From Pelagibacteraceae bacterium AG-337-I02 (lineage in GTDB: Bacteria > Pseudomonadota > Alphaproteobacteria > HIMB59 > GCA-002718135), in the NCBI GenBank assembly GCA_003282155.1, contig QBZY01000010.1:1-49855 (forward strand): a stretch of 49,855 nt of DNA. The letters are read 5' to 3'. Both the position numbers and the translations under genes were made by a program. The notes beneath the pieces are model-generated. The model was given only the letters and a program-made list of their open reading frames with translations, did no database searches and had not been told where the DNA came from. Every line of letters begins with the position of its first letter. The first letter of the stretch is position 1. Positions 15,417 through 46,034 of the stretch are shown here, in pieces.

Positions 15417-16403
15417 ATGATCAAAGAAGAAAATTTTGGATATAGAGATAAAAGAGGCCACTTCGTACCTAAAGAAGCGGCTGATAAAAATCCTATATGG
15501 ATACTTCCTTTTAATTTAAAAAAAATTTTAGATTGGTTTATCTTTTCGTATATTTTTTCTTGGAATCTTGTTTACTTAGCTGTTGCCTTTATCGCTTACT
15601 ATTTTTTTACACCTGCGCTTTCCGAAATGAAAAATCTTTCACCGGGTTGGATTTCTGAAATTTTAATTCGGAACTATGTAATAGGTACGATCTTTTTTAG
15701 TTTAATACATATACCTCTTTACATAAAAAAATCTCAGGGAATTAAATTTAAATTTAATCCAAACTGGCCAGAAAAAATTCAAAAGATTTTTACATTTAAT
15801 AAACAAATATTTGATAATTTATTTTGGAGTTTGTTTTGGGGTGTTCCTATTTGGACAGCTTACGAGGTTTTATCTTTTTGGTTTTATGCTTCTGGTTTGT
15901 TACCTTTTGTTCAATTCAGTGAAGCTCCCATTTATTTCTTTGTTATTCTTTTACTAATTCCAGCATTTAGAGATGCTCACTTTTATTTAATTCATCGGTT
16001 CTTACATTTTAAATTTATGTACAAAATTGCTCATTCTGTGCATCATCGAAATGTTAATCCTGGACCTTGGTCCAGCCTATCAATGCATCCCATTGAGCAT
16101 TTATTATATTTCTCAGGTGTGATCATTCATTGGGTTATTCTCTCTCATCCACTTCATGCAACGTATCATTTATTTCATGCAGGCCTAGGATCAGCAAACG
16201 GACATATAGGTTTTAAGCAAATGATGATCAATGATAAGCGAGCGATAGATCTCAGTAATTATAATCATTATCTTCATCATAAATATTTCGAAGTAAATTA
16301 TGGAAATTTGATGATTCCATTTGATCAATGGTTTGGTACCTATCATGATGGATCAAAAGAAATGCATGATAAGATGCTTAAAAGAGTTAGTATTAAAAAC
16401 TAA
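15417..16403 (+). CDS. fatty acid hydroxylase/sterol desaturase family membrane protein
   Basis: A 328-residue membrane di-iron oxygenase. At least five hydrophobic segments surround the His boxes: HFYLIHRFLHF (HxxxHRxxH type), then HSVHHRNVNPG, then MHPIEH and the C-terminal NHYLHHKYFEVNYG. This pattern is that of the FA_hydroxylase (PF04116) family, including sterol desaturases and carotenoid or lipid hydroxylases. The substrate cannot be told. It stands alone between the repair module and the transporter operon, with an intergenic gap of 57 bp before it and 131 bp after it. Confidence 0.9.
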   Translation: MIKEENFGYRDKRGHFVPKEAADKNPIWILPFNLKKILDWFIFSYIFSWNLVYLAVAFIAYYFFTPALSEMKNLSPGWISEILIRNYVIGTIFFSLIHIPLYIKKSQGIKFKFNPNWPEKIQKIFTFNKQIFDNLFWSLFWGVPIWTAYEVLSFWFYASGLLPFVQFSEAPIYFFVILLLIPAFRDAHFYLIHRFLHFKFMYKIAHSVHHRNVNPGPWSSLSMHPIEHLLYFSGVIIHWVILSHPLHATYHLFHAGLGSANGHIGFKQMMINDKRAIDLSNYNHYLHHKYFEVNYGNLMIPFDQWFGTYHDGSKEMHDKMLKRVSIKN

Positions 16404-16524
16404 TTTTATTTAACAATTTCATTTATTTAAATAGATTTTAGCCGTTACACATTATGCCTTGTTTAAAGGTTAACATTATGTTTATATGATAATTATATGC
16501 TAGCTAGTAGCGTATTTTACTCAT

Positions 16525-16534
16525 AGGAGGAAAT
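16525..16534 (+). promoter_or_regulatory. strong ribosome binding site of the solute-binding protein gene
   Basis: A full AGGAGG at 16525-16530, 4 nt before the ATG, stands out because most genes here have weak or no Shine-Dalgarno. It fits high expression of a periplasmic binding protein. A possible promoter (TTAACA at 16470, TATATG at 16494, 18-bp spacer) lies upstream but is weak evidence. Confidence 0.6.
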
Positions 16535-18142
16535 ATGAAAAAACTATATGTGGTTATAGTTGCAGTGTTGGCTCATCTGATGTTCATTTCATCAGCTTCA
16601 GCCCAACCTACAAATAGTAACCAACTATCCGATCCTCGTGTTAGACAAGCTTTGTGTATGGCTATCGACATGAAAACAATCGGTGAAACATTATTTGAAG
16701 ATCAAATCATAATGGCGGATAGTTTATTACCAAACGGTCCAATGAAGTCTCCAAATCTACCTGATCTCAGTTACAATCCTGAAAAGGCTCGTCAACTGTT
16801 AGCAGAAGCAAATTGGGACTCTGATAGAGAACTTGATATGGTATTCTATTATGGAGATCAGCTGACTGCTGACTTCATGGCAGCAATTCAAGCATACTTT
16901 GCTGATGTTGGTGTTAAAATGACTTACCGTCTATTACAAGGTGATGTTGGTGCACAACTTAATTCAGTTCCTGATGATGGTGTGAATGGACCAGCTGCTG
17001 TTGACTATGACTTAGGTTATGGTGCTCGTGCAGCAATTGCAATGCAAGAATATTACAATACATTTAAAACAGGTCTAAACCCACAAACTCCTGGTGATCC
17101 AACAATGGATGCGCTTATTGAAAAAATTAATTCAAGTGCAGATCCAGAAGTTCTAAAACCTGCTTTCTTTGAAATACAAGAATATCAAATGCAGCAAGTT
17201 AACATTTGCCCATTATACTATCAAAAATTATTCATCTATGAGAGTAATAAAGTTGATAGAAATGGTGGATCTTATGGTAACGCTCAGTATAACTATAACT
17301 GGGGAATTACTGATTGGAATGTAAGTGGTGGCACTATGCAAACTAACACAGGTCCAGTTGAATTCTTTGAGCAACCTTGGTACAACCTAGGTTTATGGAT
17401 ACACAATAAAGTTGTTTTCGATAGACTTTTAGTTGCTGATGGTGCGTTACAACCAGTTGGATGTTCAGCTTGTGAAAGTTATGAGTTATCAGCTGATGGT
17501 CTAAGTTTAACATTTAAACTAAAAGATGGTCTTACTTTCCATGATGGAAACGATGTGACTGTTGAGGATGTAGCATGGAGTATTCGTACTGCTATGAAAG
17601 CACCTCAAATGCACGCTCTTATCGGAAACACAGTTGGTTCGATCAAAGGCGCTGATGCATTCAAAGATGGTTCAACTGATGATGTTTCAGGTATTAAATA
17701 CAATATTGCAGACAGAGTAATTACGTTAGAATTAACAAAAATTGATCCTAACATCTTAACTACTTTCACTCAATTTGCTATTTTACCTAAGCACTTATTA
17801 GGTGATGTTGATCCTTTGAAATTCCAACAAAGTGATTTCTGGCAAATGCCGATAGGATCTGGAGCATTCAAAATTACTGAAGTTAAAATGAACGACTTTG
17901 CAAAGTTCGAACCTTTTGACGGCTATCATGGCGGTAAAGCTGGTTTTGATATCATTGCTTACCCAAGTTATGATGGTGATGGTAACTTAATTAAAAATGC
18001 TGCTGCAGGAAAAATGGACTACGGATTTACTAAAAACGTGGCCGATGTTGCTGCACTAGATGCTATGGACAACATGGGAACTAAAGCTGTTGATATCCCT
18101 TATACTCGTATGATGTGGATTATGCAGTATCCAAAACCATAG
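16535..18142 (+). CDS. circularly permuted family 5 (DppA/OppA-type) ABC solute-binding protein
   Basis: A 535-residue exported protein with a signal peptide (1-23, ending ASA). In SBP_bac_5 proteins the order is: N-terminal 'GG.l', 'ES[WY].lS.DG.t..FkL.dG..FHDG...tA.DV..S', 'G[TS]Gp[YF].i', then in the second half 'DpRVRqAl..AiDr', 'A..LLaeA', and the C-terminal lobe. Here the second half comes first: LSDPRVRQALCMAIDMKTIG at 31-50, KARQLLAEANW at 84-94, and the usual C-terminal end near WGITDWNVS at 256-264. The mature N-terminal start GGTMQTNTGPVE follows at 265, then ACESYELSADGLSLTFKLKD at 312-331, FHDGNDVTVEDVAWSI at 335-350, and GSGAFKI at 441-447. The protein ends (YTRMMWIMQYPKP) exactly where a normal protein would run into 'DPRVRQAL'. 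All parts are present once. Total length is normal. It feeds the ABC transporter that follows. Confidence 0.93.
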   Translation: MKKLYVVIVAVLAHLMFISSASAQPTNSNQLSDPRVRQALCMAIDMKTIGETLFEDQIIMADSLLPNGPMKSPNLPDLSYNPEKARQLLAEANWDSDRELDMVFYYGDQLTADFMAAIQAYFADVGVKMTYRLLQGDVGAQLNSVPDDGVNGPAAVDYDLGYGARAAIAMQEYYNTFKTGLNPQTPGDPTMDALIEKINSSADPEVLKPAFFEIQEYQMQQVNICPLYYQKLFIYESNKVDRNGGSYGNAQYNYNWGITDWNVSGGTMQTNTGPVEFFEQPWYNLGLWIHNKVVFDRLLVADGALQPVGCSACESYELSADGLSLTFKLKDGLTFHDGNDVTVEDVAWSIRTAMKAPQMHALIGNTVGSIKGADAFKDGSTDDVSGIKYNIADRVITLELTKIDPNILTTFTQFAILPKHLLGDVDPLKFQQSDFWQMPIGSGAFKITEVKMNDFAKFEPFDGYHGGKAGFDIIAYPSYDGDGNLIKNAAAGKMDYGFTKNVADVAALDAMDNMGTKAVDIPYTRMMWIMQYPKP

Positions 18143-18156
18143 TTAAATTAAACATT

Positions 18157-18191
18157 AAAGCTGAGGCATTTGCCTCAGCTTTTTATTTTTA
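18157..18191 (+). terminator. terminator/attenuator between the binding protein and permease genes
   Basis: A 12-bp perfect stem (AAAGCTGAGGCA/TGCCTCAGCTTT) with a 2-nt loop, then TTATTTTTATT. It is the strongest hairpin in the window. Its place between the binding-protein gene and the permeases suggests partial termination, giving excess binding protein over membrane parts, as is known for other ABC operons. Confidence 0.88.
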
Positions 18192-18207
18192 TTAACGGGA
18201 AGTAATA

Positions 18208-19173
18208 ATGACAACTTACATTGCTCAACGCTTGATTATTTTCTTTCCGATGCTTCTTGTCATAAGTTTTCTTGTTTATTCGGGATTAGAATTATCTCCA
18301 GGTGATGCTGTATCACATATGATTAGCCCAGAACTTGCATCAACAATTACTGCTGAACAACTTGATGCAATGCGTGAAGCGTATGGGCTAAATCAAAGTT
18401 TCATAACAAGATATTGGATTTGGTTAACAAGCATGGTTCAAGGGGACATGGGTTACTCCATGGCTGGTGGAGTTGCTATTTCTGAAATAATGATAAAAAC
18501 AGTTCCTGCAACTTTGGAACTATCAATGGTTGCTTTATTTTTCTCAACCATTTTAGGTTGTTCTTTAGGTGTGATTAGTGCACTTAAAAGAGGTTCTGGA
18601 ACTGATAATTCTCTCACAGTTGCTGGAATGGCTGGAGTTTCTATCCCAGAATTTTTCTTTGGATTAGTTGCAATTCTATTGTTTGCCATTGAATTAAAAT
18701 GGCTTCCTGTTGGTGGAAGACTCATGCCACATTATGAAACAGTGTGGGATAGAATTCCAAATATTGTTCTCCCTTCCTTAGTATTAGCATTAATGATGAC
18801 TGCTGGAGCGATGCGTTATGCACGTTCGTCTATGTTAGATGTTCTTGCAAGAGAATTTATTACAACAGCTCGATCAAAAGGTATGCCAGAATGGAGGGTA
18901 AATATTTTACATGGTTTTAGAGTTGCTTTAACACCAGTTGTAGTTTTAATTGGCTTTCGTCTACCATTACTTATTGGTGGATCAACTATTATAGAACAGG
19001 TTTACCAGTGGCCTGGAATTGGGAGTATGTTTATTCGATCTGTTCGTGCATCAGATTATCCATTAGTTATGACAATATCTCTAATGTATGTATTTGTGGT
19101 TCTTACAGCAAGCTTAATTATAGATGTATTGACGGCATTAATTGATCCAAGGGTCAGATTAGGTAAGGAATAA
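18208..19173 (+). CDS. dppB: peptide/nickel-type ABC transporter permease (DppB-like)
   Basis: A 321-residue inner-membrane permease with six predicted helices. The DppB/OppB N-terminus (YIAQRLIIFFPMLLVISFLV), the 'PGD' after the first helix, and the cytoplasmic EAA loop (EFITTARSKGMPEWRVNILH, then the G-rich continuation) are typical. The end LIDVLTALIDPRVRLG is the family ending. It pairs with the DppC-like protein, with which it shares an A (TAATG). The imported substrate is probably set by the permuted binding protein; nan genes downstream suggest an amino sugar, sialic acid or glycopeptide rather than a free dipeptide, which is inference. Confidence 0.93.
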   Translation: MTTYIAQRLIIFFPMLLVISFLVYSGLELSPGDAVSHMISPELASTITAEQLDAMREAYGLNQSFITRYWIWLTSMVQGDMGYSMAGGVAISEIMIKTVPATLELSMVALFFSTILGCSLGVISALKRGSGTDNSLTVAGMAGVSIPEFFFGLVAILLFAIELKWLPVGGRLMPHYETVWDRIPNIVLPSLVLALMMTAGAMRYARSSMLDVLAREFITTARSKGMPEWRVNILHGFRVALTPVVVLIGFRLPLLIGGSTIIEQVYQWPGIGSMFIRSVRASDYPLVMTISLMYVFVVLTASLIIDVLTALIDPRVRLGKE

Positions 19174-20087
19174 TGGCAAAGACATCTTTAGATAGAAAAT
19201 TTGATCAAATTAAAAAACGTGAAGAAGAAAAATCATTTTCAATTAAAAAAAGAAGCAGAATAGTCAGTAAATTTTTAAATAACCGCTTAGCAGTTGTTGG
19301 TCTAATTATTTTTACTATTATTATTTTAGCTTCTTTATTTGCTCCATTACTTTCGCCATACGATCCTATGCGTGTTGATCTTCGCTCAATGAGGCAAGCG
19401 CCATCTTTTGATCATTGGTTTGGCACAGATAGTACAGGGCGTGATGTTTTTACGAGAGTTTTATTTGGTGGAAGAGTTTCAATTTTTATTGGTTTAGGAA
19501 GCGCTATATTATCTGCAGTAGTTGGCATCGCAGTTGGTTGTTATGCAGGTTACAAAGGTGGTTGGATAGATGTAATTGCTCTTAGAGTTTCTGAAATATT
19601 TATGTCGTTCCCTCAAATAATATTAGTTTTATTATTAGTATCAATAACTGGTCAAAGTTTATTTAATCTTATGGCTATATTTATTCTTACTGGATGGGGG
19701 GGGATGTATAGGCTTGCTAGAGCACGTATGTTGTCATTACGTGAGGAAGAATATGTTCAAGCTCTGAGAAGTTTTGGACTTTCGACCTTTACTATTTGCT
19801 ACAAACATATGTTACCAAATGCTTTAAGTCCTATAATGGTTAATATAACTCTTTCGACGGCTATGTTTATTTTAACAGAAGCTGGTTTAAGTTTTTTAGG
19901 ACTGGGAGTGCCGTTAAATATTCCAACATGGGGAAATATACTCAATGTTGCTCAAGATATTTTAATTTTACAAAACTATTGGTGGATGTGGGGACCGGTT
20001 GGAATAGTAATTTCAGTATTTGTACTTTGTGTTAATTTTATAGGAGATGGTTTGAGAGATTCAACAGATCCATCGCAACAAGGATAG
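19173..20087 (+). CDS. dppC: peptide/nickel-type ABC transporter permease (DppC-like)
   Basis: A 304-residue permease. A charged N-terminal 50 residues precede the first helix; then LLSPYDPMRVDLRSMRQAPS and HWFGTDSTGRDVFTRVLFGG, the standard DppC/OppC signature. The EAA loop (EEEYVQALRSFGLSTFTICY) interacts with the ATPases, and FVLCVNFIGDGLRDSTDP is the family ending. Its start overlaps the dppB stop by one base and dppD begins 1 bp after its stop, so all are one transcript. Confidence 0.93.
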   Translation: MAKTSLDRKFDQIKKREEEKSFSIKKRSRIVSKFLNNRLAVVGLIIFTIIILASLFAPLLSPYDPMRVDLRSMRQAPSFDHWFGTDSTGRDVFTRVLFGGRVSIFIGLGSAILSAVVGIAVGCYAGYKGGWIDVIALRVSEIFMSFPQIILVLLLVSITGQSLFNLMAIFILTGWGGMYRLARARMLSLREEEYVQALRSFGLSTFTICYKHMLPNALSPIMVNITLSTAMFILTEAGLSFLGLGVPLNIPTWGNILNVAQDILILQNYWWMWGPVGIVISVFVLCVNFIGDGLRDSTDPSQQG

Positions 20088-20088
20088 T

Positions 20089-21117
20089 ATGACAGATAAA
20101 AATAAGATAGCTCTCTCAGTTAAAAATCTCAAAACATTTTTCTATACTAATAATAGATGTAATAAAGCAGTAAACGGTGTTTCCTTTGATGTTGAAAAAG
20201 GTAAAACACTTTGTATTGTTGGCGAAAGTGGATGCGGAAAAAGTGTAACTGCAGCAACTATTATGCAACTTCTTCCAACTTTATCAAGAATTGAAGAAGG
20301 TGAAATTATTTTTCGTAAGGATGATAAAACCATCAATATTGAAAAATTGGAAAAGAATGGAAAAGAAATGAGAAATATCAGAGGTTCTGATATCGCAATG
20401 ATTTTTCAAGATCCAATGACTGCTTTAAATCCAGTTTATACAGTTGGTTTTCAAATAAGTGAAAATTTAAAATATCATACTAACCTTAATCGAAAAGAAA
20501 TAAGAGAAAAAAGCATTTCTCTTTTGAATGATATGGGGATTCCGTTACCTGAAAAGAGAGTAGATGAATATCCTCATAGTTATTCTGGTGGAATGAGACA
20601 AAGAGCTATGATTGCAATGGCAATGGCATGTAATCCAAAAATATTAATTGCCGATGAACCTACAACAGCTTTAGATGTTACAATTCAAGCTCAAATATTT
20701 GAATTGATGGAAAAACTTAAAGAGGAAAATGATACTGCAATCATTCTAATAACCCATGATATGGGTGTTGTTGCTGAATTAGCAGACAATGTTGCAGTTA
20801 TGTATATGGGAAATATTGTCGAAGCAGGTACTGCTGATGATGTTTTAAGACGGCCTACCCACCCCTATACAAAAGCATTATTAGAATCTGTTCCAGTTCT
20901 TGGTAGAGGAAAAAATCAAGATATAAATCCTATAAAAGGGTCAACACCCGACCCATACAACAGGCCTGTTGGATGCCAGTTTGCACCACGTTGTAACTGG
21001 CAAACAGAAAGTTGTGATGTGATGCCTGAAATTACACAAATAAATAAAACTCATCAAATTAGGTGCCATAAGTACGAACAATTTTTTGAAAAGTATGATG
21101 AAAAAAGAAATTCTTAA
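20089..21117 (+). CDS. dppD: oligopeptide-type ABC transporter ATP-binding protein (DppD-like)
   Basis: A 342-residue cytosolic ATPase: Walker A GESGCGKS near residue 46, Q loop MIFQDPMTALNP, signature YSGGMRQRAMIA, Walker B ILIADEPTTALD, and H loop ILITHDMG. The C-terminal oligo_HPY region (PTHPYTKALLESVP) and CQFAPRCNWQTESCDVMPE supply the Cys pattern that in this family can bind an iron-sulfur cluster, although here one or more of the usual four Cys is spaced in the common way. It forms a heterodimer with the DppF-like protein. Confidence 0.94.
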   Translation: MTDKNKIALSVKNLKTFFYTNNRCNKAVNGVSFDVEKGKTLCIVGESGCGKSVTAATIMQLLPTLSRIEEGEIIFRKDDKTINIEKLEKNGKEMRNIRGSDIAMIFQDPMTALNPVYTVGFQISENLKYHTNLNRKEIREKSISLLNDMGIPLPEKRVDEYPHSYSGGMRQRAMIAMAMACNPKILIADEPTTALDVTIQAQIFELMEKLKEENDTAIILITHDMGVVAELADNVAVMYMGNIVEAGTADDVLRRPTHPYTKALLESVPVLGRGKNQDINPIKGSTPDPYNRPVGCQFAPRCNWQTESCDVMPEITQINKTHQIRCHKYEQFFEKYDEKRNS

Positions 21118-22105
21118 ATTACGCGATGTAAAAGTGTACTTTCCTGTAAAAGCAGGAGTCTTCAATCGAACTGTCGGACATGTAATGGCGGTCGATGGTG
21201 TCGATTTAGATATTTATCGCGGTGAAGTATTAGGCCTGGCTGGTGAAAGTGGTTGTGGTAAAACTACTCTAGGTAAAGCAATCTTAAGATTGGTTGAGCC
21301 AACAAATGGTGAAGTCACATATGTTTCAAAGGAAGATGATGAAACAGAACTGACGTCATTAGAAAAAAAAGATATGGATCCTTTTCGAAAAAAACTTCAG
21401 ATTGTTTTTCAAGATCCTCATTCCTCTCTTAATCCTTCTTTTACTATTTTTGGATCTCTTCAAGATCCTTTAAAAAAATTTGGAGTTAATTCAAAAGAAG
21501 AAAGAAGAAAAATAATAGGTGATCTATTAGAAGCAGTTAATATGCGTAGAGAATATATGGATCGATATCCACATGAGTTTTCAGGAGGTCAAAGACAGCG
21601 AATTGGAATTGTAAGAGCTTTGTGTTTAGATCCTGAATTGATTGTATGTGATGAAGCCGTCAGTGCATTAGATGTGTCAATTCAAGCTCAAGTTTTACAA
21701 TTATTAATGCAACTAAAAAAAGATAATAATTTAACTTATCTATTTATTACACACGATCTAAGTGTAACAGAATATTTATGTGATAGAATTGCAGTAATGT
21801 ATTTAGGTAGAATTGTGGAACTTTGTGATTCTGAAGATCTTTATAAAAATACTCTTCACCCCTACTCTGAAGCTTTAATATCAGCAATACCAGTCGCAGA
21901 TCTTGATAAGAAAACTAAGAGAATTGTTTTAGAAGGAGATGTACCAAGTCCAGTAAATCCACCTAAGGGTTGTCCTTTTCATCCTCGTTGCCCTAAAGCG
22001 AAAGATATTTGTAAAACTGAAGTACCAACATTAAAAAAATATTCTACAAATGGTAATGAACATTATGCATCATGCCATTTGATCGATTTACCTGAAATAA
22101 GTTAG
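21095..22105 (+). CDS. dppF: oligopeptide-type ABC transporter ATP-binding protein (DppF-like)
   Basis: Start taken at the ATG at 21095, with another ATG next to it; a TTG at 21086 would add three residues. It overlaps the dppD end by 23 bp. Walker A is GESGCGKTTLGKA, the Q loop IVFQDPHSSLNP, the signature FSGGQRQRIGIV, Walker B LIVCDEAVSALD, and the H loop LFITHDLSV. The C-terminal CPFHPRCPKAKDICKTEVP is the usual oligo_HPY Cys region. It is the second ATPase of the transporter and is directly followed, after 2 bp, by nanA. Confidence 0.94.
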   Translation: MMKKEILKLRDVKVYFPVKAGVFNRTVGHVMAVDGVDLDIYRGEVLGLAGESGCGKTTLGKAILRLVEPTNGEVTYVSKEDDETELTSLEKKDMDPFRKKLQIVFQDPHSSLNPSFTIFGSLQDPLKKFGVNSKEERRKIIGDLLEAVNMRREYMDRYPHEFSGGQRQRIGIVRALCLDPELIVCDEAVSALDVSIQAQVLQLLMQLKKDNNLTYLFITHDLSVTEYLCDRIAVMYLGRIVELCDSEDLYKNTLHPYSEALISAIPVADLDKKTKRIVLEGDVPSPVNPPKGCPFHPRCPKAKDICKTEVPTLKKYSTNGNEHYASCHLIDLPEIS

Positions 22106-22107
22106 TA

Positions 22108-23037
22108 ATGACTAAATACGATCCAAAAGATCTTAACGGTGTTATGCCTGCAATGATCACATCCATTAATAAAGATGAAAGTATTAATAAAGATGGATTA
22201 AGAAAAATAATAAACCATCTTATAGCTGAAAAAGTTAATGGTTTGTACGTAACTGGTAGTACAGGTGAGACTTTTTTAATGTCACCGGATGAAAAAAAAG
22301 AAGTTCTTGATATTATTGTTGAAGAAGTAAATGGAAGAGTTCCTATTATTGCACATGTTGGGTCTATTGGAACTAAAATTACAACTGATCTAGCAAAATA
22401 TGCAACTAGTGCTGGAGTTGACGCATTATCAGCATTGCCACCTTTCTATTATAATTTTTCTAATGAAGAAATTTACAATTATTATAGTGACATTGCTCAA
22501 TCCTCACATTTACCAATTATTATATATAATATTAGTCATGCAAACTTGATGGACATTGATATGTTAAAAAGATTGGCTGTTATAAATAATATTAAAGGAG
22601 TTAAATATACAGCAGCAACACATTTTTACTTTGAAAAAATAAAAAAAGAAATTGGAGCATATTTTAAAATTTATTCTGGAATGGATGAAATGGCTCTATC
22701 TGGTTTAATATCAGGTGCTGATGGAATGATTGGATCATTTTATAATTTAATGCCAGAAATGTTTGTGGGAATTTTTGAAAATATGAAAAATGGTAATGTT
22801 TCTGAAGCAAAAAAATTACAAGATAAAGTCAATATGATCGTATTATATGCTTTAAAAAAATCAGGATATCCATTTATTAAAATGGGATTAAGTTGGATGG
22901 GAATTGATTCAGGATATGTAAGAAAACCTTTTTCAAGTATTGTCAATACAGAAATAGAAAAGGGAATTAAAGATGATTTGAAAAAATTAATTTCAGAAAA
23001 TGATCTTGAAGAAATAAAATTTTTAAAAGCATTATAA
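22108..23037 (+). CDS. nanA: N-acetylneuraminate lyase
   Basis: A 309-residue class I aldolase of the DHDPS/NAL family. The GSTGE carboxylate-binding motif is near residue 50, the catalytic Tyr is in IIIYNISHANL, and the Schiff-base Lys is in GVKYTAATHFYF. YSGMDEMALSGLISGADGMI closely follows the NAL subgroup rather than DapA. It cleaves N-acetylneuraminate (or a related nonulosonate) to ManNAc and pyruvate. The context with nanE and nanK 8 bp and 700 bp downstream, on the same strand, supports NAL over other members. Confidence 0.88.
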   Translation: MTKYDPKDLNGVMPAMITSINKDESINKDGLRKIINHLIAEKVNGLYVTGSTGETFLMSPDEKKEVLDIIVEEVNGRVPIIAHVGSIGTKITTDLAKYATSAGVDALSALPPFYYNFSNEEIYNYYSDIAQSSHLPIIIYNISHANLMDIDMLKRLAVINNIKGVKYTAATHFYFEKIKKEIGAYFKIYSGMDEMALSGLISGADGMIGSFYNLMPEMFVGIFENMKNGNVSEAKKLQDKVNMIVLYALKKSGYPFIKMGLSWMGIDSGYVRKPFSSIVNTEIEKGIKDDLKKLISENDLEEIKFLKAL

Positions 23038-23045
23038 CCAATCTT

Positions 23046-23729
23046 GTGAAAAAAAATATTTTAAAAAAATTAAAAAATAAAATCATTGTATCATGTCAAC
23101 CTAATGAGGGTGGCCCTCAGGACAAGACATCTATTGTTGTCTCTATGGCAAAAGCAGCAATACTAGGAGGTTGTGGGGGAGTACGAATAGAAGGAGAAAA
23201 AAATATCCGTGCCGTTAAAAAAAATATTTCAGTACCAATAATAGGAATAATAAAAAACGACTTAGCAAATTATAAAGTCAGGATCACTCCTCTCTTAAAA
23301 GATGTAGAAAAAATAATTAATAGTGGAGCAGATATAATTGCTTATGATGCAACGAATAGAAAAAGGCCTTTTTCAACAAAAGAAATTATTTTTAAAATTA
23401 AAAAAGCAAATCGTTTAGCTATGGCTGACTGCTCAAATCTAGCTGATGCTAAAAATGCTATTCTAGAAGGTGCAGATATTATTGGAACTACTCTTGCAGG
23501 TTATGTCGGAAAAAAAGTAAAAGACACGGATAAGCCAAATTTTAAATTAGTTAAAGAATTTAAAAAACTAAATTGTTTTGTAATGGCTGAGGGGCGTTAC
23601 AATTCTCCAGATCTTGCAAGAAAAGCTATATTAGCAGGAGCGGATGCAGTAACTATTGGAAGCGCTATTACGCGTATCGATAATATTACTAATTGGTTTG
23701 TAAAAAAAATTAAAAATAAAAATGAATAA
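23046..23729 (+). CDS. nanE: N-acetylmannosamine-6-phosphate 2-epimerase
   Basis: A 227-residue TIM-barrel enzyme starting at GTG. NanE features are present: IIVSCQ near the start, GGCGGVRIEG, VPIIGIIK, ADIIAYDATNRKRP, LAMADCSN, GTTLAGY, VMAEGRYNSPDLARKAILAG and AVTIGSAITR. The catalytic Lys is in GIIKND and the Glu in AEGRY. It converts ManNAc-6-P to GlcNAc-6-P. It overlaps the kinase gene by 8 bp, which points to coupled translation. Confidence 0.92.
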   Translation: MKKNILKKLKNKIIVSCQPNEGGPQDKTSIVVSMAKAAILGGCGGVRIEGEKNIRAVKKNISVPIIGIIKNDLANYKVRITPLLKDVEKIINSGADIIAYDATNRKRPFSTKEIIFKIKKANRLAMADCSNLADAKNAILEGADIIGTTLAGYVGKKVKDTDKPNFKLVKEFKKLNCFVMAEGRYNSPDLARKAILAGADAVTIGSAITRIDNITNWFVKKIKNKNE

Positions 23730-24603
23730 AAAAATATTTGAGAAATCAGGCATTGCTATTGATTTTGGTGCAACTAAAATATCAGTATCTGAAATTTTTA
23801 AAGGAAAATTTAAAAAAACTATAACTGAACCCACTTCAATAAGTAAAATAGGAAAAAATTACATTCAGCAAATTGAAAAAAATATAAAAACAGTAAATCA
23901 ATTAAAATTAAAAAAAATAGGTATAGCTATTACAGGTAGAGTTGATCAATCAGGAAATTGGTACCCAGTAAATAAAGAAAATTTAGGAACTTTTAAAATA
24001 CCTCTTAAAAAGCTTGTAGAAAAAAAATTTAAAACACCAACTACAATTATTAATGATGCTACTGCTGCAGCTTTTGGTGAAGCAATGTATGGAAAGGGCT
24101 ATAAATATAAACGTGTTGGATATATTACAATTTCAAGTGGTATCGGGGTGGGTATAATTTTAAACAATAAACCCTTTCTTTCTGAAACTGGTCTAGCTGG
24201 ACATTTAGGTTTTACAACCTCAAAATTGGGAAAAACAAAATGTGGGAGTGGAAGAATTGGTACTTTTGAAAGTATCGCTTCTGGTAAAGCAATGAGTAAA
24301 ATTGCTAAACAAAAAGGTTACAAAAATATCACAGCTGAGGAAATTTTTAAACTTAGTTTAAATAATAAAAAATGGGCCAGAAAAATAATTGATTTAAGTG
24401 CAAAATCTATCTCAGAATTGTGTGCTAATTTAAAAGCTATTTTTGATATAGATATAATTATTCTTGGTGGAAGTATTGGAATGGCAAAGGGTTATTTAGA
24501 ACTTGTTAAAAAAAATTTAGCGCAAGAACCTAAATTATTTCATGTAAAAGTAGTGAAGTCATCTCTTGGAATGAAAGCAGCAAAAATGGGTGTTTTGATT
24601 TAA
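23722..24603 (+). CDS. nanK: ROK-family sugar kinase, probable N-acetylmannosamine kinase
   Basis: A 293-residue kinase with phosphate loop AIDFGATKISVSE and catalytic Asp in INDATAAAFGE. The ROK signature region GHLGFT is followed by the zinc motif, normally CxCGxxGCxE, which here reads TKCGSGRIGTFE with two of the three Cys replaced by Thr. Some ROK kinases lack zinc, so activity is not excluded. Position after nanE supports ManNAc kinase. A weak hairpin (CACAA...TTGTG, then CTTTT) 1 bp after the stop may be a terminator or attenuator before the aminotransferase. Confidence 0.85.
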   Translation: MNKKIFEKSGIAIDFGATKISVSEIFKGKFKKTITEPTSISKIGKNYIQQIEKNIKTVNQLKLKKIGIAITGRVDQSGNWYPVNKENLGTFKIPLKKLVEKKFKTPTTIINDATAAAFGEAMYGKGYKYKRVGYITISSGIGVGIILNNKPFLSETGLAGHLGFTTSKLGKTKCGSGRIGTFESIASGKAMSKIAKQKGYKNITAEEIFKLSLNNKKWARKIIDLSAKSISELCANLKAIFDIDIIILGGSIGMAKGYLELVKKNLAQEPKLFHVKVVKSSLGMKAAKMGVLI

Positions 24604-24651
24604 ACACAAGAAAGTATTGTGCTTTTAATAAAAATTGCATAGGTTAATAAA

Positions 24652-25953
24652 ATGGGCAAAGGGCAAAAATTATATTCAAAAGCAAAGCAAATTGTTGCTG
24701 GTGGAAATATGCTTTTATCAAAAAGACCTGAAATGTTTTTACCCGAACATTGGCCTGCTTATTTTAGTAAAACAAAAGGGTGTGAGGTTTGGGATCTTGA
24801 TGGCAATAAATATATTGATACCTTAATGATGCCAGGAACTAATTCACTTGGATATAGCCATCCAGAAGTTGATGAAGCTGTGAAGGAAACAATTAGTAAT
24901 GGTAATATGTCTTCTCTCAATGCTCCTGAAGAAGTTGAACTTACTGAGAGGTTAGTTGAATTACATCCATGGGCTGATATGGCAAGATTTGCAAGATCTG
25001 GTGGTGAAGCTAATTCAGTCGCTATTCGTCTTTCAAGAGCTGCTTCCAGAAAAGATAATGTAGCATTTTGTGGATATCATGGCTGGCATGACTGGTACTT
25101 AGCTTCAAATTTATCTGACTCAAAAGGGTTAGATGGCCACTTACTACCCGGTTTAGATCCTCATGGTGTACCACAAAATCTAAAAGGAAGTGTATACCCT
25201 TTTGAATATAATAATTTTGATAAACTAGAAAACTTAGTCAAAACAAAAAATATAGGCGTTATCAAAATGGAAGTTTACCGAAATAAAGAACCAGAAAATA
25301 ATTTTTTACACCGCGTTAGAAAATTAGCTAATGATAATAATATTGTTTTAGTTTTTGATGAATGTACATCAGGATTTAGAAAAAATTATGGTGGCTTACA
25401 TAAGCTATATAATGTTGAGCCTGACGTCGCTATGTTTGGTAAAGCACTTGGTAACGGATATGCTGTGACTGCTGTTCTTGGAAAAAGAGATGTAATGCAA
25501 GCAGCTGAAAAATCTTTTATAAGTAGCACTTTTTGGACTGAAAGGATTGGATCTAGTGCTGGACTAGCTACACTAAAAGTTATGGATAACGAAAAGTCTT
25601 GGGAAAAGATTACAAAAACTGGTGAATACGTAAATAGTGAATGGATAAAATTATCAAAAGAATTTGATCTTCCAATTACTATTAGTGGTTTAGCGGCACT
25701 TACAACATTTTCATTTAAAAGTGAAAAAGCATTAGCTTATAAAACATTTATTACTCAAGAAATGCTTAAAAAAGGCTATCTTGCTGCAACTGCAGTCTAT
25801 GTTTGTACTGCACACAAAAAAGAAATTATTGATGGTTACATTGAAAATATACGCCCAATCTTTCAGACAATAAAAGAGTGTGAAGATGGAAAAGATATTA
25901 TGGATTTATTAGAAGGTCCTATTGCACATAATGGTTTTAAAAGACTAAACTAA
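24652..25953 (+). CDS. class III aminotransferase, glutamate-1-semialdehyde aminomutase-like
   Basis: A 433-residue PLP enzyme of the GSAM/class III group. It shows YIDTLMMPGTNSLGYSHPEV near residue 55, FARSGGEANSVAIRLSRAAS (phosphate-binding), FCGYHGWHDWY, VFDECTSGFR with the PLP-binding Asp, and the Schiff-base Lys in MFGKALGNGY. True HemL keeps 'P..GGP' features that differ here, and these catabolic neighbours argue for an amino-sugar or amino-acid substrate. It lies 48 bp after nanK and probably ends that operon, facing the convergent M81 gene with only 1 bp between. Confidence 0.88.
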   Translation: MGKGQKLYSKAKQIVAGGNMLLSKRPEMFLPEHWPAYFSKTKGCEVWDLDGNKYIDTLMMPGTNSLGYSHPEVDEAVKETISNGNMSSLNAPEEVELTERLVELHPWADMARFARSGGEANSVAIRLSRAASRKDNVAFCGYHGWHDWYLASNLSDSKGLDGHLLPGLDPHGVPQNLKGSVYPFEYNNFDKLENLVKTKNIGVIKMEVYRNKEPENNFLHRVRKLANDNNIVLVFDECTSGFRKNYGGLHKLYNVEPDVAMFGKALGNGYAVTAVLGKRDVMQAAEKSFISSTFWTERIGSSAGLATLKVMDNEKSWEKITKTGEYVNSEWIKLSKEFDLPITISGLAALTTFSFKSEKALAYKTFITQEMLKKGYLAATAVYVCTAHKKEIIDGYIENIRPIFQTIKECEDGKDIMDLLEGPIAHNGFKRLN

Positions 25954-40361: not shown

Positions 40362-41642
40362 TTAAAAATAAGTTAATATTCCATCAAGAACATTATAGTC
40401 ATCATCAACAACTGGAATAAACTTCCATTTATCAAATGCTGTGCATGGATGGGAAATACCAGAACAAATCATATCCCCTACCTGCCATTGATGATTATCA
40501 GCAAGTTTAACAAAGGCATGCTGATCATTTGTGCTAAATATTTCTGCTTCACCAATATCTAAGAAACCTTCACCAGGTCTAAATCTTTTTATTGGTTTTG
40601 GTAAACCTGAATCATATGGAGCATCTCGTTTTCCCATAGTTAGAAAAGCAAGATTATTTTCAGGAATTGATTGTACATAGGACCAAATTTCAAGAGCTGG
40701 TTGTAGAGATTGATCCCATTGTCTATTGGAATCACTTTTAGCTGTTTCAAGTGCATCTAAGTAAGGCCCATGATCATGTGTAATATAACATCCACTTCGT
40801 AATAGTACTTTAATAGGAACACTGAGTTTGATTTTAGAAAATCTTTCTCCTACAATATCAAAATGAGTTGATCCGCCAGCAGTAATTAATAATTCATTTA
40901 GATGAGAGTAATAATTTGAAGGAATATCTTTAATAATATCCTCAATCTTTGAACAAAAATCATGCACAGCATTTGAACCTTTCATAGCAACAGCCGCTAT
41001 GCCCTCATAAGAAGATATACCTGCAAAAGTAAAATTCTTTGATGAGTCCGCTCCAATTATATTAACGAGTTTTAAAAAATCTTCTTTTTTACGTATACCT
41101 GTTCTTCCATTTTTTGCACCTATTTCAGGCAATAAATTTATTGGATTGGTTAAATTTTGATCACCAAGATTTTTTTTAATATTTAAAAACTGTTCAATAG
41201 AATCAACAAAACAATAAAAAGAAAAATTTTTATTTTGATTAATATATGATGCTATTGTTTCTAAATGCGATTTACCTAAAAGTTGATTAGCAAGTAAAAC
41301 TTTATTAATACCAAAATCAAACATAACTTGAATTTGGTTAATGGCACCAGCTGTAATGCCCCATGCACCATGTTTTATCTGCTCAGAAAAAATCTGAGGG
41401 GCCATGGTAGTTTTACCATGAGGTGAAATATGTAAATTATGTTTTTCTAAATAATCTGAAAAAGTTTTTAAGTTATGAAGATAATTTTTTTGTTTTAATA
41501 CCATTAATGGCATTGGCATATCTTCTTTCAAAATATTCCATTTTTTATTTTTAAGTTCTTTAAGTGGAAATGGCTCACTAGAGCCTGGAATACCTTTAAT
41601 TCGTCTATCTAAAATAGTATTTTGAATTTCACTCAAATCCAT
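40362..41642 (-). CDS. D-threonine aldolase/D-serine dehydratase-like PLP enzyme (fold type III)
   Basis: A 426-residue PLP protein with an alanine racemase-like N-terminal barrel. The Schiff-base Lys is in ISPHGKTTMAPQ, the PLP-binding residues GAKNGRTGIR, and the metal site SHPCTAFDKW with the His-x-Cys pair characteristic of the D-Ser dehydratase/D-Thr aldolase (DSD1-like) C-terminal domain. Such enzymes cleave or deaminate beta-hydroxy D-amino acids. The start overlaps the stop of the HpaI gene (TAATG), so it is coupled to it. Which reaction occurs cannot be told. Confidence 0.88.
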   Translation of the reverse strand: MDLSEIQNTILDRRIKGIPGSSEPFPLKELKNKKWNILKEDMPMPLMVLKQKNYLHNLKTFSDYLEKHNLHISPHGKTTMAPQIFSEQIKHGAWGITAGAINQIQVMFDFGINKVLLANQLLGKSHLETIASYINQNKNFSFYCFVDSIEQFLNIKKNLGDQNLTNPINLLPEIGAKNGRTGIRKKEDFLKLVNIIGADSSKNFTFAGISSYEGIAAVAMKGSNAVHDFCSKIEDIIKDIPSNYYSHLNELLITAGGSTHFDIVGERFSKIKLSVPIKVLLRSGCYITHDHGPYLDALETAKSDSNRQWDQSLQPALEIWSYVQSIPENNLAFLTMGKRDAPYDSGLPKPIKRFRPGEGFLDIGEAEIFSTNDQHAFVKLADNHQWQVGDMICSGISHPCTAFDKWKFIPVVDDDYNVLDGILTYF

Positions 41643-42466
41643 TAAGCATTTATTTTATCAAATGTATTTATAAGCTCCTCTGCATAGTTAGTTAGTCCTA
41701 TAACGTCAGAACCGATATTTAAGAGATTATATCCCATATCAATATATTCAGAGGCAATGTTTGGTCCACCTGGTGTTGCTGCAATTTTATTATGTTTCCT
41801 TGCAAGTTCTGCAACTAGTTTTCTTACTTTAGAAACTTCTGGATGATCCATTTGTCCAGGAACACCTAAAGCTAGTGAATAATCTCCAGGCCCAAAAAAT
41901 AAACCATCAACGCCTTCCATTTCTGCAATTGCTTCTATATGATCAAATGCCTCTGGTGTTTCAATTTGATAAATTACGAGTCTTTCTTCATTAGATTTTG
42001 TTAAATACTCTTCAATATCTAATCTGGCATACTTACCATCATTATTACCTCCATCTAAACCTCGGTGTCCTATAGGAGGAAATTTTGTGCTATCTCTAAC
42101 AAATTTTGCATCATCATAGTTTTTAATTTGTGGAATTACTAAACCAGCACAATCTATTTCTAATCCTCTTATATAAGAACTATAACTACCTCTAGATACT
42201 CGTAAGATTGCATCAACATCATATATTTTAGCAGCATTAACTTGATTCTCTGCTTGAGTGTAATCCAAAGATCCGTGTTCCATATCTAGCCAAATTGCGT
42301 CTGGTTGAGCAAGAGAAAAAATTTCGGCAACTTTTGTATCCGAGGTATTACATTTTAAGGTTATTGCTACTTTACCTTCACTTGTAGTTCTTTTGATTCT
42401 ACTTTCTCTAAAAGTATCAAAAGGTTTTTTGCTTACTTTTGCCATTGTTCTATCATATCTCGTCAT
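41642..42466 (-). CDS. HpcH/HpaI class II aldolase family protein
   Basis: A 274-residue TIM-barrel aldolase. It shows WLDMEHGSLDYTQAENQVNA (family 'D.EHg..d'), R-V-x-R in ILRVSRGSYS, GLVIPQIKNYDDAKFVRD, YQIETPEAFDHIEAIAEM with the catalytic Glu, and DGLFFGPGDYSLALG with the metal Asp. Members cleave 2-keto-3-deoxy-sugar acids and related compounds to pyruvate. It is the middle of the leftward operon and translationally coupled with the D-threonine aldolase-like gene. Confidence 0.91.
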   Translation of the reverse strand: MTRYDRTMAKVSKKPFDTFRESRIKRTTSEGKVAITLKCNTSDTKVAEIFSLAQPDAIWLDMEHGSLDYTQAENQVNAAKIYDVDAILRVSRGSYSSYIRGLEIDCAGLVIPQIKNYDDAKFVRDSTKFPPIGHRGLDGGNNDGKYARLDIEEYLTKSNEERLVIYQIETPEAFDHIEAIAEMEGVDGLFFGPGDYSLALGVPGQMDHPEVSKVRKLVAELARKHNKIAATPGGPNIASEYIDMGYNLLNIGSDVIGLTNYAEELINTFDKINA

Positions 42467-42483
42467 AATATTTCTCCCTTTAT

Positions 42484-43275
42484 TTATTTTGCAGTATATC
42501 CACCATCAACTGCAATGATTGTTCCTGTTAAGTAAGCGGATGAGTCTGATGCTAAAAAAATAATTGGCCCTTTTAGATCAGTGCTATTAGCCATTCTACC
42601 TAACTGAGTTCTTTTGCTATAATTCTCTACAAACCTATCTGGATGTGAAGGAACTTTGAAACCTCCTGGTGCCAAACAATTTACCCGAATATTATGAGGT
42701 CCTAACATACTTGCTGCCCATCTTGTAAAATTGTGCATGCCTCCCTTTTCATAAAAATATAATGGAGAAGTAGCAGGTGTGAAATCTGTACCTTCATAAT
42801 TGCCATTTTCCACACCAACAGTACCCATCATTGATCCAATATTTATAATAGATCCAGATTTATTTTTTTTCATTCCTTCAGCAAACATATTTGTAATTTT
42901 AAATAATGCTGATGCGTTTATTCTTAAACTTTTATCAAAGTCATCTAGACTATTGTCCCAACCAAGACTGCCATGCTCTCTGGAAACTGCATTATTTATC
43001 AAGACATCACATTTTCCACTTTTCTCAATAATGTCATTGTATAATTTTTCGATTGAGTCATCCTGAGATAAATCTAATTGTAATGCAGTAACTTTATAGC
43101 CTCGTTTTGTTTCTTCTTCTGCTACTTGTTGTAAACTTTCAATATTTCGTGAAGCTATATATGTATCTGCTCCAGCTTCAGCTAATGCTTCCACTATTTG
43201 TCTCCCATAAAGTCCAGCACCTCCAGTAACAAGTGCAACTTTACCTTTTAAAGAAAAACTTTCTAAAACATTCAT
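42484..43275 (-). CDS. SDR family oxidoreductase (probable sugar-acid or gluconate-5-dehydrogenase-like)
   Basis: A 263-residue SDR: TGGAGLYGRQI at the cofactor site (shifted from TGxxxGxG by Leu-Tyr), catalytic Ser in NIGSMMGTVG, and YFYEKGGMH for YxxxK. The ending LTGTIIAVDGGYTAK is the family ending. The 'LYFYEKGGM' and ARG-rich start are like gluconate-5-dehydrogenase relatives. It is directly upstream, after 17 bp, of the HpaI aldolase gene, so it may oxidise the sugar acid that the aldolase cleaves. Confidence 0.87.
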   Translation of the reverse strand: MNVLESFSLKGKVALVTGGAGLYGRQIVEALAEAGADTYIASRNIESLQQVAEEETKRGYKVTALQLDLSQDDSIEKLYNDIIEKSGKCDVLINNAVSREHGSLGWDNSLDDFDKSLRINASALFKITNMFAEGMKKNKSGSIINIGSMMGTVGVENGNYEGTDFTPATSPLYFYEKGGMHNFTRWAASMLGPHNIRVNCLAPGGFKVPSHPDRFVENYSKRTQLGRMANSTDLKGPIIFLASDSSAYLTGTIIAVDGGYTAK

Positions 43276-44235
43276 CTAACTAACCTCACTTAAATTAATT
43301 TTAATTCCACCCTCTTCTCTACTCTTTATGCCAGCAGCAACAAGTTGCATTAATTCTTTGGTTTCCTTCCATGGAACTGGTTTTACACCTGTTCGTAAAT
43401 AATGAACGTATGACTCTAATTGTTTTTTAAATGCATAAAAAGTATCATTTGATTTTATTTGTATTCCACTTTTAGTTCCAACTAAAGAAACAAGCCCAAA
43501 ACCTCCGATCATATCAAAGACATTAGCAATATTAATATCAATACCTTTTGAATGATGTAAATGAACAATATTTCTATCTTTATCTCCTAGATTTTGTATT
43601 GAGGTAAAGCCTGGACCAACAATTGGATATAATGTTTCTAAAGCGTGTATCCCATATTTTTCCCAACTTTTTGCCATAGTGACATTAATGTATCTTAAAT
43701 CACCTAGTTCGTAAGTAGATTGATGGTATGGCTCGTACTCTTTACAATATCGCATTGCAGAAGAACTAATTATTGGCTTTCCTTCATCAATCCACTGTTG
43801 AAAAATTTTTAGATCAGTAAAATTATCGCATAATGGTTTATCAACAAAGATTGGTACATTTGCCTCAACGAATGGTTTACACCTTTCAACATGCTCTGAA
43901 CCAATATCAGTTGCAACTAAAACTGCATCGACTTGTCCAATCACATCTTTTGGATCTTCAACAATATTTTCAATTTCTGCAACATTAGCGACAAGTTTTG
44001 CATCTTCAGTATTGTCTGTCCATACATGTGAAACTTCTACATCTTTTATACCTAGAGTATTTTTTGGTTGCTTTGAAATATAATCAATAATTGCTGCATA
44101 AGGACATTGTGCTAATGCTTCAGCGTTATATCGACCGTTTATAATTATGCTCCATGAGTAAGGATGTCCATTTCCTTCAGTCATTCCTAGCATTGCTAAT
44201 TTGATTTTTTTATTTTCTATGGGAAACTGAGTCAT
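43276..44235 (-). CDS. Gfo/Idh/MocA family oxidoreductase
   Basis: A 319-residue NAD(P)-linked sugar oxidoreductase. The N-terminal Rossmann start KIKLAMLGMTEGNGHPYSW lacks the plain GxGxxG but VDAVLVATDIGSEHVERCKP and the EKP-like VDKPLCDN are typical. The rest is shorter than the usual 340-380 residues. It meets the SDR gene directly (0 bp). Its likely substrate is a cyclic polyol or sugar acid; family only. Confidence 0.83.
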   Translation of the reverse strand: MTQFPIENKKIKLAMLGMTEGNGHPYSWSIIINGRYNAEALAQCPYAAIIDYISKQPKNTLGIKDVEVSHVWTDNTEDAKLVANVAEIENIVEDPKDVIGQVDAVLVATDIGSEHVERCKPFVEANVPIFVDKPLCDNFTDLKIFQQWIDEGKPIISSSAMRYCKEYEPYHQSTYELGDLRYINVTMAKSWEKYGIHALETLYPIVGPGFTSIQNLGDKDRNIVHLHHSKGIDINIANVFDMIGGFGLVSLVGTKSGIQIKSNDTFYAFKKQLESYVHYLRTGVKPVPWKETKELMQLVAAGIKSREEGGIKINLSEVS

Positions 44236-44248
44236 TAATTAATATCAC

Positions 44249-45028
44249 TTACCACGCTGTCCAACCACCATCAACTATAAGTGAATGACCCGTCATATAA
44301 CTTGATGCATCAGATAAAAGAAAAATTGTTGGTTTTGCTGTTTCGATAGGTTTACCGAAACGCTTCAACATTGTAGAATTTTTTAAATTACTCAAAAATT
44401 TTTTATTATTATTTGCAGCCTTAGTTATGTTTGGAAAAGGTCCAGGAACAATTGCATTAATACGAATATTATTTTTACCATAATATGAAGAAAAATATTT
44501 TACCATTTGGTTTAAACCAGCTTTTCCAGCACCATATTCTACAGGATTAGGATTAATATTTTTTGGATACATTTCCATTTTCGGCGATATTAATCCATAC
44601 ATAGACGCAAACATTACAATACTTCCACCTTTTTTCATTTTATTTGCCACACCTCTCATAAGTAAAAAAGAGCCTGTTAAATTAATTTGATTAGCTTTAT
44701 TAAATTTTTCTGCAGTTAATTCAGATAGTTTATCAGAAGTTGATCCAAATGTTGCGTTAACTAATCCATCTATATATTTAAATTTTTGATAAGCTAATTT
44801 AATATTTTTAGAAATTGATTCAGGCTCAATCATATCTAAGTGAGAAAATATAATTTTACTCTTGGGATATTTTTTTTGTAATTTTTTTATTACTAATTCA
44901 GTTTTTTTGATGTCTTGATCGGCTAAAAATATATTTCCTTCTAGTTTCATTATCTCTTCGCATAAAACTGAACCAAGATATCCACTACCTCCAGCAATAA
45001 AAATATTTTTATTTTTCAAACTAATCAT
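44249..45028 (-). CDS. SDR family oxidoreductase (sugar-related)
   Basis: ATG at 45028 gives a 259-residue protein beginning MISLKNKNIFIAGGSGYLG, which puts the glycine motif at the normal distance. A longer start at 45085 would overlap the previous gene by 56 bp and is not chosen. Catalytic Ser is in VMFASMYGL and YxxxK in VEYGAGKAGLNQM. It ends MTGHSLIVDGGWTAW. It starts 1 bp after the Gfo/Idh stop. Confidence 0.88.
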   Translation of the reverse strand: MISLKNKNIFIAGGSGYLGSVLCEEIMKLEGNIFLADQDIKKTELVIKKLQKKYPKSKIIFSHLDMIEPESISKNIKLAYQKFKYIDGLVNATFGSTSDKLSELTAEKFNKANQINLTGSFLLMRGVANKMKKGGSIVMFASMYGLISPKMEMYPKNINPNPVEYGAGKAGLNQMVKYFSSYYGKNNIRINAIVPGPFPNITKAANNNKKFLSNLKNSTMLKRFGKPIETAKPTIFLLSDASSYMTGHSLIVDGGWTAW

Positions 45029-45029
45029 C

Positions 45030-46034
45030 TTAACTAATTTTAATTGTTTTTTTATCTTTCCAAGATGATTTAGCAGCCAATACAACTTTTAAATTTAAAT
45101 AAGCTTCTTCTAAAGTTGCTAAATCACAATCCTTACCTTCATAACCATCTAAAAATCTATTTGCCTGTAAAAGAAAATTATTTTGATGTACTTCCATTGG
45201 ATCTCGGTCTTTCATATAATCTTTTTGATCTTTCCAAACACCGCTATCATCATCAGCAAACATTAAAGTAGAATGATCAAGTTTTATATTACCTTTAGTG
45301 CCAACAAACTCATATGTATTAATATTTGGTTTCTGAAATTGATTAACTGTAATATTGGCTAAAGATCCATTAGAAAATCTTATATTAATAAGACAAGTAT
45401 CCTCTGTTTCTGTTCCCTCTAATACTAATCTATCGTACATACAGCTTACCTCTTCAGGAATACCTAATATCCAAATTAATTGATCAATCATATGAGTAGA
45501 AGCATCGAGTATGGCACCTCCTCCAGTTTCTTCTTTTGCATAATAAATAGTTTGATAATCTGGCCTATATTTAGGAAACTCTTGTGATGAATTAATATAA
45601 GCTAATTTAACGTCCCCTATTTTATTATTCATAATTTGATCTTTTAAGGCTCTAGAGACTAAGCTATTTCTTCTTGTATATCCTACACGAACAAATAATT
45701 TTTTTTCTTTTACTTCTTCTATAATATTTTCTAAACCATCAATTTTTGTAGAAAGAGGTTTTTCTACCATAAATGATAAATTACTTTTTATACAAAACTG
45801 CATATGTTCCAGATGCCAATTAGCTGGTGAACATATTATTGCTAGATCAAATTTTTGATTAACTTCATCAAGAGAATTATATGTATGTTGAATTTCAAAT
45901 TCACTATTTAAGTTTTTTTGTTTATTAACATCTGGTTCAACAATAGAAATTTTAGCTCTGCTAGTTCCCAAATAACCTTTAATATGTCTTTTACCAATTC
46001 CACCTGCTCCAATTATTAAAATATTATAAATCAT
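45030..46034 (-). CDS. Gfo/Idh/MocA family oxidoreductase (second copy)
   Basis: A 334-residue oxidoreductase: LIIGAGGIGKRHIKGY (GxGxxG) at residue 5, CSPANWHLEHMQFCIKSN, and VEKPLST for the EKP motif; the middle has GGGAILDASTHMIDQLIWIL with the usual catalytic His. Its length and motif order are normal for the family. It is the first gene of the leftward six-gene operon to 40362, with a divergent gap of 87 bp before the RraA-like gene. Confidence 0.92.
   Translation of the reverse strand: MIYNILIIGAGGIGKRHIKGYLGTSRAKISIVEPDVNKQKNLNSEFEIQHTYNSLDEVNQKFDLAIICSPANWHLEHMQFCIKSNLSFMVEKPLSTKIDGLENIIEEVKEKKLFVRVGYTRRNSLVSRALKDQIMNNKIGDVKLAYINSSQEFPKYRPDYQTIYYAKEETGGGAILDASTHMIDQLIWILGIPEEVSCMYDRLVLEGTETEDTCLINIRFSNGSLANITVNQFQKPNINTYEFVGTKGNIKLDHSTLMFADDDSGVWKDQKDYMKDRDPMEVHQNNFLLQANRFLDGYEGKDCDLATLEEAYLNLKVVLAAKSSWKDKKTIKIS

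Follow-up and report, generated by a model that had tools for sequence, protein, structure and literature searches.

Can the two halves of a bacterial solute-binding protein (SBP) exchange places in nature? The question is raised by a 535-residue protein encoded at 16535-18142 on the forward strand of a 49,855-nucleotide stretch of DNA from Pelagibacteraceae bacterium AG-337-I02 (contig QBZY01000010.1), which is referred to here, at its full length, as the window. Family 5 SBPs form a large receptor family that has been studied in depth, and in the usual picture they close by a motion through two hinge strands. An earlier reading, made from the sequence alone, had called this protein a naturally circularly permuted member of the family, in which the normally C-terminal half (block A) follows the leader and the normally N-terminal half (block B) ends the chain; the open reading frame and the quoted landmarks are found at the place and in the order that it gave. 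Sequence comparison confirms the predicted product as a family 5 ATP-binding cassette (ABC) SBP with its blocks swapped and supports circular permutation as the interpretation. Our best explanation, in which as a whole we have high confidence, is that a family 5 (PF00496, cluster C) SBP has been circularly permuted in nature; the protein would act as an importer receptor for a sialate-type ligand and would have originated by duplication.

The swapped order is evident in profile matches. The sole Pfam family in the protein is SBP_bac_5 (PF00496), at 168.1 bits against a gathering cut-off of 32.4, and the whole-protein match falls into two stretches, the best of which aligns residues 313-527 with profile positions 7-204. 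Searched alone, residues 1-263 match positions 209-326 (70.4 bits) and residues 264-535 match positions 7-204 (101.3 bits), while re-indexing the protein as B followed by A gives a single continuous match to positions 7-326 at 179.3 bits. Pfam hits in the normal order, which would have refuted the sequence-only reading, are thus not what is seen. Each half of a family 5 SBP is present once. The score places the protein in the family and the canonical N-to-C profile order is missing; this missing order is the finding itself, and homology to SBP_bac_5 is not in doubt. Solved SBPs show the same arrangement: residues 308-494 and 31-96 align with 65-237 and 278-346 of 1xoc, respectively, and residues 30-232 with 266-464 of 7kz8. 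NCBIfam models split the protein likewise; the best of them, NF045467 (Opp4A oligopeptide-binding protein), is itself of canonical order and matches in two stretches at 135.7 bits, far below its cut-off of 650. As a control, 72,556 plasmid records were searched with the homolog P0072 in both orders. Left in natural order (543 aa), the query was covered to at least 80% by one place in 5 of the 2232 records with a match; re-indexed (517 aa, without leader), it was so covered in 1099 of 3296.

Structure prediction is consistent with one binding protein. The AlphaFold model of the permuted protein is a single confident chain (predicted local distance difference test, pLDDT, 91; predicted template modelling score, pTM, 0.84), and its two blocks match complementary halves of solved SBPs, as would be expected if they complete one fold. 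Neither Foldseek nor VIA gave a whole-length solved match to this model among the best 50 listed in each, unlike a canonical sister, which matches solved SBPs end to end; the canonical-order model, built from 14 sequences, is itself only moderately confident (pLDDT 73.2). Two points count against the structural part of the explanation: the assembly of the blocks rests on pTM and block-wise matches rather than on superposition of the whole re-indexed model, and we know of no solved structure or binding datum for any permuted member.

Adjacent normal genes, or a broken gene, falsely joined during assembly or amplification could mimic such a protein, and the window's genome is a fragmented draft of 40 contigs that is 79% complete. 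Against this stand 28 loci from other assemblies, recovered by a scan of genome contigs, in 24 of which the whole gene is co-linear, the remaining four being cut. Of these 24 complete loci, 23 are matched at residues 1-535 and one at 1-532, with best-segment identities of 79-100%, and most of the 28 carry isolate names of the AG-000-A00 type, which we take to denote single-cell genomes. Within the window's taxonomic family, 19 of the 80 genomes sampled carry the gene; all 19 are of the window's genus, and each is matched over 1-535 with no internal stop. The swapped order also recurs in all of the best 120 database homologs, at identities down to 51%, and ratios of nonsynonymous to synonymous substitution rates of 0.03-0.16 in both blocks (five comparisons) show that both are under purifying selection. 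Misassembly, one of the possible refutations named by the sequence-only reading, is rejected because the gene recurs in other assemblies and in database homologs, and we give an artefact practically no credence.

The protein is not the lone oddity that it first appeared to be but a member of a permuted family. From 350 proteins (346 database proteins, the window protein and three locus proteins), 78 were left out for want of a near-complete match to one block; of the 272 in which both blocks are near-complete, 143 are permuted and 129 canonical, so that unpermuted close homologs exist, as natural circular permutation demands. Source names of the homologs include Devosia geojensis, Paradevosia shaoguanensis, Maritalea, Marinovum, Alsobacter, Granulosicoccus, Geminicoccaceae and candidate division KSB3, the last being that of the permuted protein P0099. 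A search with a doubled query brought in 117 new and more distant relatives, which hidden Markov models (HMMs) of the blocks ordered as 20 permuted, 90 canonical and seven unclassable. A profile was then made from 14 canonical relatives, and every one of the 109 further proteins that it listed is canonical. Named canonical members come from Hungatella hathewayi (P0247), unclassified Anaerotruncus (P0150) and Defluviitalea raffinosedens (P0322). The 120 best homologs include one short permuted protein (P0037, 358 aa; 88% identity over 62% of the query) whose end residues look unrelated and which is probably truncated or frameshifted.

Canonical relatives belong to the same subfamily as the permuted proteins, are alignable in both blocks and share the YTR hinge motif; they differ in their leader, which is longer and of lipoprotein type (a median of 60 residues precedes block B), and have a hinge gap of 7-8 residues. 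Identity across the two orders reaches 60.3% (permuted P0076 and canonical P0239), 60.0% (P0099 and P0312) and 59.7% (P0129 and P0322). Since cross-order identity is this high, sequence comparison places the permutation inside one subfamily and not at the root of the family. Joining halves of two different SBPs, for instance by fusion of neighbouring paralogs, would yield the same order without permutation of any one protein. We consider such a chimera very unlikely: canonical relatives are similar across both blocks, and P0008, P0014, P0017 and P0042 are among the five rows nearest to the window protein in the trees of both blocks, whose agreement on near relatives disfavours the chimera.

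The cut and the join can be read by comparing permuted and canonical members. In P0239, a typical canonical protein, the leader is followed by VLYSNGGPEEFF..., YTRLFYLNKFPKADGTPSPLADVRVRQA... and finally NPQFNYDWNIQNWELK, where the chain ends; in P0099, a typical permuted one, it is followed by NSNPLSDVRVRQA..., then NPQYNYDWNIVNW-TVAPDKDGKQ-VLYTNTAPVEFF... and YTRSLFVNKFPKK at the end. Canonical sisters stop just past an NW motif and their block B begins near VLYTN. The old termini are joined in the permuted proteins, and the new ones lie at a formerly internal site at which canonical relatives run uninterrupted. In 123 of 143 permuted sequences exactly 16 residues separate the two block models, and beyond the cut the chain runs on at its new C-terminus for a median of 2 residues; the window protein's join is five residues shorter in alignment A1. 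The sampled permuted proteins have one common cut site, with the last aligned residue before it corresponding to residue 267 of AppA (1xoc) and residue 273 of OppA (1ola), where the chain is taken to pass from lobe I into lobe II for the first time; the cut is thus apparently at the first inter-lobe hinge. The earlier proposal that the chain is cut on entering the second lobe and joined at its old ends agrees with these canonical relatives, whose identity to permuted members reaches 60%.

In the resulting architecture, the canonical C-terminal half follows the leader and a short linker connects the old C- and N-termini. With the new ends presumably at the first lobe-to-lobe crossing, a single hinge strand, and no longer two, would form the covalent connection between the lobes. 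In other respects the protein would work as SBPs normally do, its two lobes closing on the ligand, with the new ends paired non-covalently at the hinge. The leader of the window protein resembles a signal peptide, and the protein may be exported. A lipobox-like cysteine is found in the leader of 9 of the 10 tree members of two further permuted groups (groups II and III, described below), P0132 being without it; the lipobox-bearing proteins would accordingly be tethered to the membrane at the hinge.

Searches of openly licensed PubMed Central papers listed engineered permutations and biosensors but no SBP permuted in nature; a report elsewhere is possible. The sequence-only reading likewise knew of no described natural permutation in this family. 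The circularly permuted halves of a Thermotoga ribose-binding protein described in PMC9815098 also represent circular permutation of a periplasmic binding protein, but they are laboratory constructs of single lobes with a different (type I) SBP fold, unlike the window protein. A natural family with one covalent hinge, together with canonical relatives of 60% identity, makes the role of the second hinge directly testable, and the placement of chain ends and membrane tethering could likewise be tested in a permuted/canonical pair. The family offers a natural experiment on how a protein can be cut at a hinge, rejoined at its old ends and still survive, and, with more than 100 proteins from several bacterial groups, it is a well-sampled natural circular permutation. 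It also carries a warning for annotation: the source names, which only part of the proteins carry, say ordinary substrate-binding proteins.

How did the order arise? Tandem duplication of a canonical gene (or fusion of adjacent copies) followed by loss of the outer halves would produce it. The duplication and trimming suggested by the sequence-only reading is plausible; what weakens it is that the doubled-query search for an intermediate found none with more than 51% coverage among the best 120 of 160 matches (candidates from about 563 aa up, with the 7990 sharing most words scored). In P0172, a canonical-order relative of 799 aa, the block HMMs match in the series B, part of A, then part of B and A. 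The repeat is inferred from these matches and from visual inspection, BLAST self-comparison having given a full-length match only; it resembles an in-frame duplication within the gene that spans the hinge, which may be raw material for permutation.

Trees were built from 62 of the 272 proteins, namely 44 cluster representatives and 18 added by choice. In the tree of concatenated blocks, three permuted groups (I to III, of 31, 5 and 5 members) and one canonical group (15) surround a centre that is not resolved, while six distant canonical rows fall outside; this tree needs two changes of order. A 59-protein tree without the long branches P0156, P0176 and P0180 also needs two in its best topology. 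On the side of multiple switches, trees with one change make up only 6% (62 proteins) and 20% (59 proteins) of bootstraps, and the block B tree needs two changes; two permutations at the same place, or one followed by reversion in the group of named clostridia, would account for this. Set against it, a single permuted clade costs only 0.30 log-likelihood in the 59-protein tree and is unrejected (approximately unbiased test, p=0.43), and the block A tree needs a single change (both block trees also lack P0157 and P0158). Moreover, the three permuted groups share the same cut and groups I and II a PDxNGKK-like linker (P0121 and P0123, absent from the trees, were compared under group II for cut and linker), the groups were named after the tree was seen, and the long outgroup branches meet. 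We lean towards a single origin of the permuted order without claiming it, and regard an origin other than single as a real possibility, though below an even chance. Somewhat more doubtful still is the wider idea that the order switched more than once, by two permutations at the same hinge or by permutation and return, which would make the hinge a recurrent break point and single-hinge receptors a maintained functional class.

The surroundings of the gene (Table 1), whose NanA, NanE and NanK-like genes went unmentioned in the sequence-only reading, bear on what the receptor binds. The operon runs from the SBP through two permeases, two ATPases, NanA, NanE and a NanK-like kinase to a class III aminotransferase, and the receptor would dock on the Opp-type importer of its own operon (18208-22105).

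Table 1. Coordinates of the permuted gene, its parts and signals, and neighbouring genes in the window
Feature	Position	Strand	Evidence or remark
AGGAGG ribosome-binding site	16525..16530	+	read in sequence
Circularly permuted family 5 solute-binding protein, 535 aa	16535..18142	+	open reading frame list, Pfam, solved-SBP matches, homologs
Probable signal peptide, residues 1-23 (...SSASA|Q)	16535..16603	+	sequence pattern; hydrophobic leaders in alignment A1
Block A, residues 28-261: canonical C-terminal half (second lobe and return strand)	16616..17317	+	
Join of old C-terminus and old N-terminus, residues 262-268, limits approximate	17318..17338	+	comparison with canonical sisters
Block B, residues 269-535: canonical N-terminal half, last part the hinge strand (YTRMMWIMQYPKP)	17339..18139	+	
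Terminator-like hairpin between binding protein and permeases	18157..18182	+	11 pairs, T-rich tail
ABC permease, Opp/Nik B type	18208..19173	+	profile match
ABC permease, Opp4C-like	19173..20087	+	336 bits, cut-off 350
ABC ATPase, OppD/DppD-like	20089..21117	+	under curated cut-offs
ABC ATPase, OppF/DppF-like	21086..22105	+	under curated cut-offs; listed from TTG, true start perhaps slightly later
N-acetylneuraminate lyase NanA	22108..23037	+	289 bits, cut-off 281
N-acetylmannosamine-6-phosphate 2-epimerase NanE	23046..23729	+	282.2 bits, cut-off 189
ROK kinase, best match N-acetylmannosamine kinase	23722..24603	+	215.5 bits, cut-off 283
Class III aminotransferase, glutamate-1-semialdehyde aminomutase-like	24652..25953	+	under cut-offs
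Catabolic block: BhcC-like pyridoxal phosphate enzyme, HpaI-type aldolase, two short-chain dehydrogenases/reductases (SDRs), two Gfo/Idh oxidoreductases	40362..46034	-	

Uptake of N-acetylneuraminate or a relative is our best guess, held with moderate confidence, because NanA is kept in close and distant loci alike; the ligand, N-acetylneuraminate or a related nonulosonic acid, would then be split by NanA. Among the 28 close loci, NanA directly follows the ATPases in all 25 that reach that far. In five distant loci the four importer genes are all present (66-77% identity) and a NanA homolog lies nearby (36-47% identity), which in four exceeds the N-acetylneuraminate-lyase cut-off. NanE and NanK-like genes adjoin both the window copy and L061, whose SBP is 54.7% identical. 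Several observations pull the other way and leave sialic acid uncertain as the ligand. Of the 24 close loci that show which gene comes after NanA, 21 have NanE there and three (L022, L025 and L030) have the aminotransferase, with NanE and NanK absent between the two; neither was detected in four of the five distant loci. The NanA of L059 falls under its cut-off (259.9 vs 281), as does the window's NanK-like kinase, whose NanA and NanE neighbours exceed theirs. In L013, NanE is followed by the aminotransferase with no NanK match between them.

The real substrate range may be wider, since two of the five distant loci (L059 and L060) share with the window a further catabolic block of two Gfo/Idh, two SDR, HpaI-type aldolase and BhcC-like genes. 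A peptide, an opine-like compound or another 2-keto-3-deoxy sugar acid could be the ligand instead: family 5 SBPs listed in the Protein Data Bank bind peptides, nickel, heme, agrocinopines and more, NanE and NanK were not found beside several copies, and the shared neighbours include these Gfo/Idh, SDR, HpaI-type and BhcC-like enzymes. With NanA so constant beside the importer, and NanE and NanK next to the window and L061 copies, we think a non-sialate ligand possible but rather unlikely. The SatA-type sialic acid binding protein of Haemophilus ducreyi (5z99, 5yyb, 5za4) is neither close to the window SBP (22-23% identity in the matched half) nor alike in chain order, being canonical. Searches of the openly licensed PubMed Central literature listed nothing on this transporter; one listed paper, PMC10504371, contains both AEGEAN-169 and sialic acid.

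Importer, NanA, aminotransferase, dihydrodipicolinate synthase-like, Gfo/Idh, SDR, HpaI-type and BhcC-like genes of the window (16535-46778) recur wholly or partly, rearranged, in L059 and L060. With the SBP as sole marker, 19 of the 80 genomes sampled from the window's family have the catabolic gene set. Two proteins of the sialidase-like repeat family BNR_2 (33447-34526 and 35865-36983) flank a major facilitator superfamily transporter.

The permuted gene is rare per genome. It was found in 2 of 385 genomes sampled across the class (E<=1e-60), both of the window's genus, in 1 of 398 across the phylum (E<=1e-80), namely the window itself, and in 5 of 397 genomes of an order centred on G417; in these three samples at most three candidates per genome were scored, and copies may have been missed. 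The last order would be Rhizobiales, because the SBPs of L059 and L060 start like P0042 (Paradevosia) and P0014 (Rhizobiales bacterium), respectively. Viral contigs gave no match to the gene and plasmids no close copy, the best place being below 60% identity in all 1356 records. On metagenome-bin contigs, the gene occurs at 97% identity under the title Euryarchaeota archaeon (L020) and at 94%, over 54 residues only, under Gammaproteobacteria (L033); both contigs are probably misbinned or misnamed.

The hairpin downstream of the gene, earlier called the strongest terminator of the region, does have the longest stem of nine terminator-like sites listed in 16300-24700, where shuffled sequences gave a mean of 3.8 sites; it is listed on both strands. 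The G+C content of the binding protein gene (0.38) and the first permease gene (0.37) is raised over that of the whole window (0.305), perhaps from transfer or high expression.
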